64,000 nucleotides of DNA from Thermogemmata fonticola (GTDB lineage Bacteria > Planctomycetota > Planctomycetia > Gemmatales > Gemmataceae): contig NZ_JACEFB010000002.1 of the NCBI RefSeq assembly GCF_013694095.1, positions 124,001 to 188,000 of the forward strand. The letters run 5' to 3'. A model generated the notes under the pieces. It saw nothing but the letters and a program-made list of their open reading frames with translations, made no database searches and was not told where the DNA came from. How positions within the stretch are numbered: position 1 is the first letter of the stretch; each line of letters opens with the position of its first letter. A program made the translations under genes and the position numbers. Positions 18,795-49,840 of this stretch are shown here, piece after piece.

Positions 18795-18896
18795 TTAGCC
18801 ACGCGCTGAGGGCCAAGGGAACATCTCCATGCCGCCGGAATGCTTCCAGATCTCTGGACCAGTGCATGGAAGGTGTAAAGCGGCCCGAAGAAGGGA

Positions 18897-18978
18897 TCGC
18901 CTCCCTCAACGGCATGACCCGTTCAGGTTCCAAGGGTATAATCTCAGCCCGTGCCCCGTGCACAGGCACCCCCGGCGA
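18897..18978 (-). promoter_or_regulatory. TPP riboswitch (THI element) upstream of thiC
   Basis: Read on the minus strand, the leader shows the TPP aptamer core: GGGGGTGCC near the 5' side, then GGGCTGAGATTATACCC, CTTGGAACCTGAACGGGTCA, and TGCCGTTGAGGGA. The outer P1 stem is TCGCC/GGCGA (18974-18978 with 18897-18901). About 130 bases separate it from the thiC ATG. They contain short hairpins such as CTTCCA...TGGAAG but no U-run, so translational control is more likely than transcription termination. The aptamer match is very strong; the expression mechanism is inferred. Confidence 0.93.
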
Positions 18979-19130
18979 GTTACTATCGTTGTAGATAATC
19001 CGCTAGGTCATCGGCCAGCCAGGGTGGCGATCACCATCGCGGCGGCACTTGACCGGCTCCAGTCTGGCGGTTCAGCCTCTTAGTCATTAATTAGATTGGC
19101 GTTTGCTTACGGTTTGTGTCTTGCCCAGAC

Positions 19131-47996: not shown

Positions 47997-48890
47997 TCAG
48001 AGCAAGCCGTAGTTGATCAGGGTTTGCCGGATCCGTTGTTCACCGGCAGCGTCCAACGGACACATGGGCAAGCGCAATTCTCCAGTCCCGCGTCCGAGGA
48101 GCTTCATGGCGGTTTTGATGGGGATCGGGTTGGTGGCTACACTGAGCATATCCCGGCAGAGGGGGAAGAGTTTGTGATGCCAGCGTTGCGCTTCAGCGAT
48201 CTGGCCCCGATTGAAAGCATGGACCAAGGCCATCATGTCTTGTGGGACGATATTGCCCACCACACTGACCACGCCGCGTCCTCCGATGCTCATGAGGGGG
48301 AGTGTCAGGCTGTCGTCTCCGCTCAGCAGCGTTAGATCGCACAAAGCGGCAATCTGGCTAGCTTGGTCGAGGGAACCCGAGGCTTCTTTGACCGCCACGA
48401 CGTGGGGAAAAGCCTGAGCGAGACGGGCGATAGTTTCTGGGAGGATATTGGAGCCAGTGCGGCCTGGGATGTTATACAGCACCATGGGCAGGTCCACCGC
48501 TTCCGCGATGGCCGCAAAGTGACGGTAGTATCCTTCCTGCGTCGGCTTGTTGTAATAGGGACCGACTTGGAGGGTGCCATCTGCCCCGGCCTTCTTGGCC
48601 GCTTTGGTCATGCGGATAGCCTCAGCCGTACAATTGGAGCCGGTACCCGCCATCACCTTGAGCCGCCCGCGTGCCCGCTCGCAAACATAGGCCACGACCC
48701 GTTCATGCTCCTCGTGACTGAGGGTCGGGGATTCTCCCGTGGTCCCGCAGGGTGCCAAGGCCGGCGTGCCTTGCTCGCAGTGCCAGTCCACTAGCCGTCC
48801 CAATTCCGACCAATCGATTTCGCCGTTGCGGAATGGCGTCACGAGCGCTACCGTGACTCCTGCGAACATTTCCCCGCGTGTCGTGGCCAT
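47997..48890 (-). CDS. dapA: 4-hydroxy-tetrahydrodipicolinate synthase
   Basis: This 297-residue TIM-barrel aldolase condenses pyruvate with aspartate semialdehyde in lysine/DAP synthesis. It shows [54 protein letters not shown], Tyr139 in [11 protein letters not shown], the Schiff-base Lys168 in VVAVKEASG, and [21 protein letters not shown]. All catalytic residues are present. Its substrate comes from asd, encoded at 43301-44401. The selenoprotein-like gene lies 380 bases upstream on the same strand. Confidence 0.95.
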
Positions 48891-49270: not shown

Positions 49271-49639
49271 CTATTGAGTGGTCGGTCCTACCAGAACCTT
49301 GACCCCCGGTGCATACTGAGAGCCTAGGGCGTTTTTGACTTTGTCCAGATCAAACGCCTCGCGGGACGTTACGGTGAATCGGACCTGTCGTTTGCGGCGA
49401 TCCGCTTGGATGGAGCCTGCCTCTACCCACGGTAGAGTTGTGAGTGCCGCCCTCACATTGTCCGGTCAACTCGCTCAGGTCATGCGGGGTACTTTAAGGA
49501 CGACCTGATTGGGGCCGTCGGTGGGCAGCGGTTCATCTACTTGATTCTGCGAGCTGCAACTGAGCAGGATAGCTCCCAATGTACCCACCATAGCGAGGTA
49601 AGTTGCAGCTTGAACTAGCCGATGTGGCGTGGCTAACAC
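49271..49639 (-). CDS. Putative selenoprotein: lipoprotein with HMA domain, UxxU in place of CxxC (two in-frame TGA codons)
   Basis: Reading from GTG at 49639, a 122-residue protein results if two TGA codons (49475-49477 and 49466-49468) are decoded as selenocysteine. It has a lipoprotein signal (AMVGTLGAILLSC, Cys28), a short linker, and one heavy-metal-associated domain: NQVVLKVPRMT, then U55-A-S-U58, then PDNVRAALTTLPWVEAG and RQVRFTVTS. The HMA family has MTCxxC exactly here, so both TGA codons replace the two metal-binding cysteines. AAGGAGAT sits seven bases before the GTG. A SECIS-like hairpin follows (49435-49472). Other stop codons are absent from the frame. The alternative is a pseudogene with two TGA changes. 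Confidence 0.82.
49435..49472 (-). promoter_or_regulatory. Candidate bacterial SECIS element inside the HMA gene
   Basis: Starting two bases after the first TGA, the minus strand shows a lower stem GAGTTG/CAACTC (49467-49472 with 49435-49440). An upper stem TGAG/CTCA sits above it, alternatively TGTGAG/CTCACA (49452-49457 with 49439-49444). The apical loop is GGCGGCA, beginning with G as in bacterial SECIS elements. The loop starts 23 bases after the first TGA and 14 after the second. The second TGA overlaps the lower stem. The fold is by eye and not energetically evaluated. Confidence 0.6.
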
Positions 49640-49840
49640 CTTCGATCTCCTTGATGACGAGTTGAGGTAGGGGTCTTGCAGTCTGTTTTCTATCTTATAC
49701 TAGAGTTCCCGGAGAGCACAAGAACAGATGAATCCAGCTTGGCGGGGAAGCGCGGGTTTGTTCCGAGAACACTGTCAGCCGGCAGGGGTGTCTGCTAAGC
49801 TGATGCATCGAGGGGTCATGCAAGTGATACGAGGCTGGAA

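Follow-up and report, generated by a model that had tools for sequence, protein, structure and literature searches.

Selenoproteins of the MerP and MerT type have already been published (PMC13188914, PMC9312934, PMC2398784), and with NF041115 (UxxU_metal_bind) NCBIfam holds a UxxU metal-binding selenoprotein, the 'putative mercuric reductase' of review tables. For bacterial selenocysteine (Sec) insertion elements, the bSECIS model describes a hairpin with a loop of 3-9 nt, a G within the first two loop positions, a stem of 4-16 bp and a distance of 16-37 nt between the UGA and the apical loop (PMC13188914). Among planctomycetes, genes for Sec insertion were previously known from G. obscuriglobus and I. 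pallida, and selenoproteins of other planctomycetes have been listed (PMC4807772). Here, we analysed a stretch of 64,000 nucleotides from Thermogemmata fonticola (assembly GCF_013694095.1, contig NZ_JACEFB010000002.1, positions 124,001 to 188,000), hereafter called the window, for which an 'unannotated UxxU selenoprotein' had been predicted. The wording is right with regard to standard ORF calling, but NF041115 and the published MerP- and MerT-type selenoproteins show that an HMA selenoprotein with UxxU has predecessors. The lipoprotein encoded in the window is a new subfamily of this known UxxU kind, and the two-hairpin element that accompanies it is the more novel part; a survey of the main texts of open-access papers yielded no report of either the lipoprotein family or the double hairpin. 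Taken as a whole, the sequence data make it very probable that the gene encodes a lipid-anchored HMA protein with an MTUxxU motif, in which both UGAs are decoded as Sec and recoding is brought about by two hairpins.

The gene occupies positions 49271..49639 on the minus strand and codes for 122 residues, MLATPHRLVQAATYLAMVGTLGAILLS-C-SSQNQVDEPLPTDGPNQVVLKVPRMT-U-AS-U-PDNVRAALTTLPWVEAGSIQ.... Coordinates and translation bear out the predicted frame, which runs from a GTG start (49639-49637) to a TAG stop (49273-49271), is interrupted only by two TGA codons and contains neither TAA nor TAG in the window sequence; the protein string originally given around both TGAs is exact. UGA 1 (49475..49477) corresponds to residue 55, the first metal ligand, and UGA 2 (49466..49468) to residue 58, the second, so that the two lie nine nucleotides apart in the mRNA. 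The predicted Shine-Dalgarno sequence, AAGGAGAT, is present at 49645..49652, yet it is placed 5 bases ahead of the GTG and not 7, a spacing obtained only when counting from GGAG. Standard calling indeed reports nothing but a 61-residue fragment behind the second TGA (ORF 49271..49456), and in the whole bacterial family it yields only such a headless fragment. Residues 1-28 (49556..49639) form a putative signal peptide with a lipobox, which was read by eye as ILLS-C with Cys28 and agrees with L-x-[GAS]-C; its Cys is nearly invariant across the aligned family, as would suit the proposed surface or periplasmic anchoring. The gene is solitary, flanked by an aroD/aroE-like fusion and by a dapA-like gene (dihydrodipicolinate synthase, 47997..48890, minus strand) that follows 380 bp downstream on the same strand and is probably not functionally linked to it. 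Elsewhere in the window, a TPP riboswitch (18885-18983, minus strand) exceeds the Rfam gathering score.

The genes that should accompany a true selenoprotein, named as a check in the original prediction, were all found in the same genome, a Gemmataceae assembly of 4.81 Mb and 97% completeness. It encodes selA (532.6 bits), selB (396 bits), selD (291 bits) and a tRNA-Sec (74.9 bits; tRNA-SeC(tca) with a uca anticodon according to ARAGORN), which together are the four components that mark a Sec-using genome. The selD gene (L126, G000:C3:143392-144300) lies within an open frame of 776 aa whose N-terminal part is pyridine-nucleotide oxidoreductase-like, and this frame looks like the known NDH-SelD fusion type. 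The genome also has two genes of the redoxin family (L196, G000:C15:40500-43000; L197, G000:C1:566000-568500) that contain one in-frame TGA each, within SLTUPP and HLTUTAC, respectively. One of them is followed by a single SECIS hairpin GUCGCC-AGUCU-GGCGAC with its loop about 16 nt past the UGA, the other by CCACCUC-GGC-GAGGUGG with its loop about 22 nt past the UGA. Given these ordinary elements, the organism seems to use Sec beyond the lipoprotein gene. As an aside, roughly one in three Gemmataceae genomes (G008, G014, G016, G017, G020, G032, G036 and others) match the selB profile over no more than its first ~350 of 581 positions, so that the C-terminal part, which binds the SECIS, may be divergent in them; among the Gemmataceae genomes, we saw no simple link between the shortened match and hairpin B, described below.

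Homologues are numerous within the family. A protein search of 59 relatives led to 21 places, 19 of which contain one or two TGA and none an internal TAA or TAG, and a profile built from 17 of these places matched in 63 of 95 Gemmataceae genomes, the weaker matches being ordinary Cys HMA proteins. In at least 40 other genomes, a homologue likewise has TGA at one or both of these ligands. Across 55 aligned members, the ligands are Sec/Sec in 23, Sec/Cys in 26 and Cys/Cys in 6 cases; hence, all 49 U-containing loci have TGA at the first ligand, and the second is split between TGA (23 loci) and Cys (26 loci). Ligand spacing varies between UxxU in some members and UxxxU or UxxxC in others. The homologue search that had been suggested thus returned relatives with Sec or Cys at the ligand positions and never with another stop codon, and the Cys homologues sought exist in G032, G075, G112 and G116, such that the in-frame UGAs align with conserved Cys residues of homologues. 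Among 392 genomes sampled from the phylum, with only 11 candidates scored in each so that rare members may have been missed, we found only two further weak matches, one of a Cys form and one that is not clearly related. Plasmid records gave no match to the lipoprotein.

Could the locus simply be a Cys-type HMA lipoprotein gene broken by two stops, either as a pseudogene or through sequencing error? Two in-frame stops in one assembly, taken in isolation, would suggest as much. However, the same TGAs recur in dozens of independent assemblies with never a TAA or TAG at the ligands, the full Sec machinery is present, and the sequence around the stops is under purifying selection. Compared with its nearest relative, the genus-mate G001, the window gene has a dS of 1.23 and a dN/dS of 0.046 over 89 shared codons, and G001 keeps both TGAs. 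The comparative data refute decay or error, whose probability we regard as negligible. A reading of UGA as Trp or Cys through a changed code or a near-cognate tRNA would account for no more than the fact that the frame stays open if TGA is read through. It is nevertheless highly improbable, as TGA is an ordinary terminator in this bacterial family and even ends several of the lipoprotein genes themselves, the gene itself uses TGG for Trp, Cys is the only alternative at the positions in question, and a tRNA-Sec(uca) is available. The low dN/dS and the retention of both TGAs in G001 speak against all of these readings, be it pseudogene, error or changed code. Every sequence test named in the original prediction came out in its favour, and the data strongly support that both UGAs are read as Sec by SelB and tRNA-Sec.

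That both TGAs fall on metal ligands of an HMA domain proved correct, since the protein with C for U reaches 28.8 bits against HMA (PF00403), above the Pfam gathering cut-off of 24.8; the MTCxxC loop would accordingly read MTUxxU. An AlphaFold2 model (mean pLDDT 84) has the beta-alpha-beta-beta-alpha-beta order of the HMA fold, and among PDB structures MerP (1osd), which carries mercury in the periplasm, is the best match; HMA domains of ATPases were matched as well. When the organism's genome was searched in six frames with the HMA model, nothing exceeded the threshold, and the lipoprotein gene itself was missed, presumably because the two stops lower its score; possibly, the organism has no HMA protein besides the lipoprotein.

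How does the protein relate to the described families? Like NF041115, it has a small domain of the HMA type in which Sec replaces both ligand cysteines, but its score is 29.9 bits where the cut-off is 95, none of the 95 Gemmataceae genomes passes this cut-off, and its own family consists of lipoproteins, some of which have UxxxU or UxxxC. MerP is its best structural match and has, like it, an HMA domain, probably extracytoplasmic here as well, whereas the TIGR02052 score of 31.6 bits stays below the cut-off of 92.55. Membership in NF041115 or MerP was rejected on these curated cut-offs. From the MerP- and MerT-type selenoproteins of marine metagenomes and other bacteria it differs by its predicted lipid anchor, its two Sec residues and the lack of adjoining mer genes.

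We suggest that the single HMA domain, of ferredoxin-like fold, is held outside the cytoplasm in the periplasm or at the cell surface, where its selenol pair or diselenide may coordinate a soft metal ion, for instance Hg(II), Cu(I) or Ag(I), in the way MerP-like proteins do with thiols, and that the bound metal is sequestered or handed to efflux. In one sub-branch of the family (L074, L079, L080, L084, L087 and L090), the lipoprotein gene lies directly upstream of a gene that codes in L084 for a CusB-like adaptor carrying a heavy-metal-binding domain (HMBD) and in the others for its homologue, as in CusB-linked copper-silver efflux systems. For this sub-branch at least, the arrangement favours a part in the handling of soft metals. 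The window gene, in contrast, lies outside such an operon, and the lack of a metal-related neighbour beside it (dapA- and aroDE-like genes) counts against a metal role. CusF has another fold and other ligands than the HMA lipoprotein. A selenol/thiol redox protein, for instance a diselenide oxidoreductase, in place of a metal carrier appears unlikely: redox enzymes are considered to make up the majority of selenoproteins (PMC13188914), and the UxxxU and UxxxC forms need not match a single metal geometry, but the HMA fold with MerP as closest structure, the absence of a thioredoxin fold and the CusB-like genes beside one branch argue for metal binding. A metal-binding role would add to the list of selenoproteins an extracytoplasmic lipoprotein with an all-selenium ligand pair that occurs across a bacterial family.

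To our knowledge, it is an open question in bacteria how two UGAs only a few bases apart are decoded when one SECIS is rightly spaced for only one of them. Past the UGAs of the lipoprotein gene, the DNA is conserved beyond what the protein requires, and two adjacent hairpins, missed by the original prediction, are found there. Hairpin A (49439..49457, minus strand; UGUGAG-GGCGGCA-CUCACA) resembles a bSECIS and varies in sequence and register among members, and hairpin B (49421..49437, minus strand; CUCUACC-GUG-GGUAGAG) is nearly invariant, its few changes covarying. With a loop of GGCGGCA, 6 bp and a distance of 23 nt, A agrees with the bSECIS model for UGA 1, and at 14 nt it is too near UGA 2; B, with a loop of GUG and 7 bp, lies 44 nt past UGA 1 and agrees with the model for UGA 2 at 35 nt. 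By these distance and loop rules, A suits UGA 1 only and B suits UGA 2 only. Compared to the classical bacterial SECIS (E. coli fdhF type; consensus of Zhang and Gladyshev), hairpin A of a sister clade without B is alike in having a GGUCU/AGUCU-type apex 22-23 nt past the UGA, whereas the clade of the window gene has two adjacent hairpins, the near-invariant second of which follows UGA 1 at a distance of 44-47 nt and UGA 2 at one of 35 nt.

Several observations show that both structures are real and depend on Sec. When each gene was compared with 300 synonymous recodings, the double-Sec members gave mean z values of -2.2 at hairpin A and -2.7 at hairpin B, as opposed to +0.2 for A in the six Cys members. 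Between the window gene and G001, the 12 codons over A and B show zero synonymous change (P about 7e-5 at the whole-gene rate). In 35 aligned members, 97% of the cells of hairpin B are paired and 4 of its 7 pairs are changed on both sides; the alignment was picked for forming B, which inflates the paired percentage, but the two-sided changes are harder to explain in this way. These amount to 19 cells against 4.0 +/- 1.6 in shuffles, none of 500 of which reached the observed number, and sliding the pairing by 1-3 columns leaves at most 51% paired. Compensation goes along with changes in the protein: E to K is matched by leucine CTA to TTA (CUUUACC/GGUAAAG), V to A by TTA to TTG (CUUUGCC/GGCAAAG), and a change to R and one from E to D occur with CCUUACC/GGUAAGG and GUCUGCC/GGUAGAC, respectively. 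In L082, L083, L087 and L112, the Trp of LPWV is replaced by Cys or Gly, by which the innermost pair of B opens and the outer six stay.

A covariance model of A and B produced 37 strong matches in 95 genomes (at least 36.9 bits; the next at 27.7), each of which falls by its coordinates inside a gene of the family. As the model matches nothing but the lipoprotein family, B was rejected as a general element of these genomes or of other selenoproteins. The exact 18-mer of hairpin B was found in 84,980 species genomes at 13 loci of Planctomycetota, all of them the lipoprotein gene, and at nine others (eight Clostridia, one Dojkabacteria), at which no lipoprotein gene was found. The clostridial occurrences (contigs L129, L131, L136, L140-L143 and L149), some of which are the core of a longer palindrome, e.g. 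GGACTCTACCGTGGGTAGAGTCC, are probably unrelated to the lipoprotein element.

The conserved hairpin pair probably directs the reading of both stop codons as Sec, but what does each hairpin contribute? The likeliest scheme, to which we would give an even chance, is a tandem SECIS with divided labour. Hairpin A, or A stacked with B, would serve UGA 1; once UGA 2 enters the ribosome, A would be opened, leaving B as the sole folded hairpin to serve UGA 2. Hairpin B would then constitute a new class of bacterial Sec-insertion element, one specific to the Gemmataceae lipoprotein family, whose near-invariant ACCGUGGGU apex is farther from UGA 1 than is usual.

Hairpin B is present in all 23 double-Sec members, in 13 of 26 single-Sec members and in none of the six Cys members. 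On the member tree, which rests on few columns and has many weak forks, about ten exchanges of Sec and Cys are counted at the second ligand and only about three changes of hairpin B. A service of B to UGA 2 only was therefore rejected as the whole story, given that 13 members with a single Sec retain the hairpin and that it is far more stable on the tree than the second residue; as judged from these sequences, B belongs to Sec decoding and not to UGA 2 alone. The apex of A is linked to B as well: a canonical [AG]GU[CU] apex occurs in 13/13 single-Sec members without B and in 2/36 members with B (Fisher P 4e-10, for related and hence non-independent sequences), and in L094 and L105 the canonical apex and B are found together. 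As the canonical apex is missing in 34 of the 36 B-bearing members, A itself may not bind SelB.

In a close rival to the favoured tandem scheme, SelB would bind B only, which would act as SECIS for either UGA, and A would be a folded spacer that sets its distance. We consider it possible, though the less expected of the two. It would explain why B is conserved in sequence like a protein-binding site and A varies in sequence and register, why the canonical apex of A is missing in nearly all members with B and present in all single-Sec members without it, and why B is retained in single-Sec members and gone in Cys members. On the other hand, the loop of A in the window gene (GGCGGCA, at 23 nt) obeys ordinary bSECIS rules, another selenoprotein gene of this organism has a GGC loop, and L094 and L105 combine a canonical A with B. 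About 50 natural variants with two, one or no Sec, with and without B, allow the need for each hairpin to be tested directly, be it in the tandem scheme or in its rival.

Beside the main gene, L070, L097 and L099 represent a tandem paralogue, a second HMA lipoprotein with the motif M[TA][ED]RLxL[TV]UxxUP, which is apparently a second double-Sec subfamily. It has two UGAs and lacks hairpin B, indicating that B is not needed for every UxxU.
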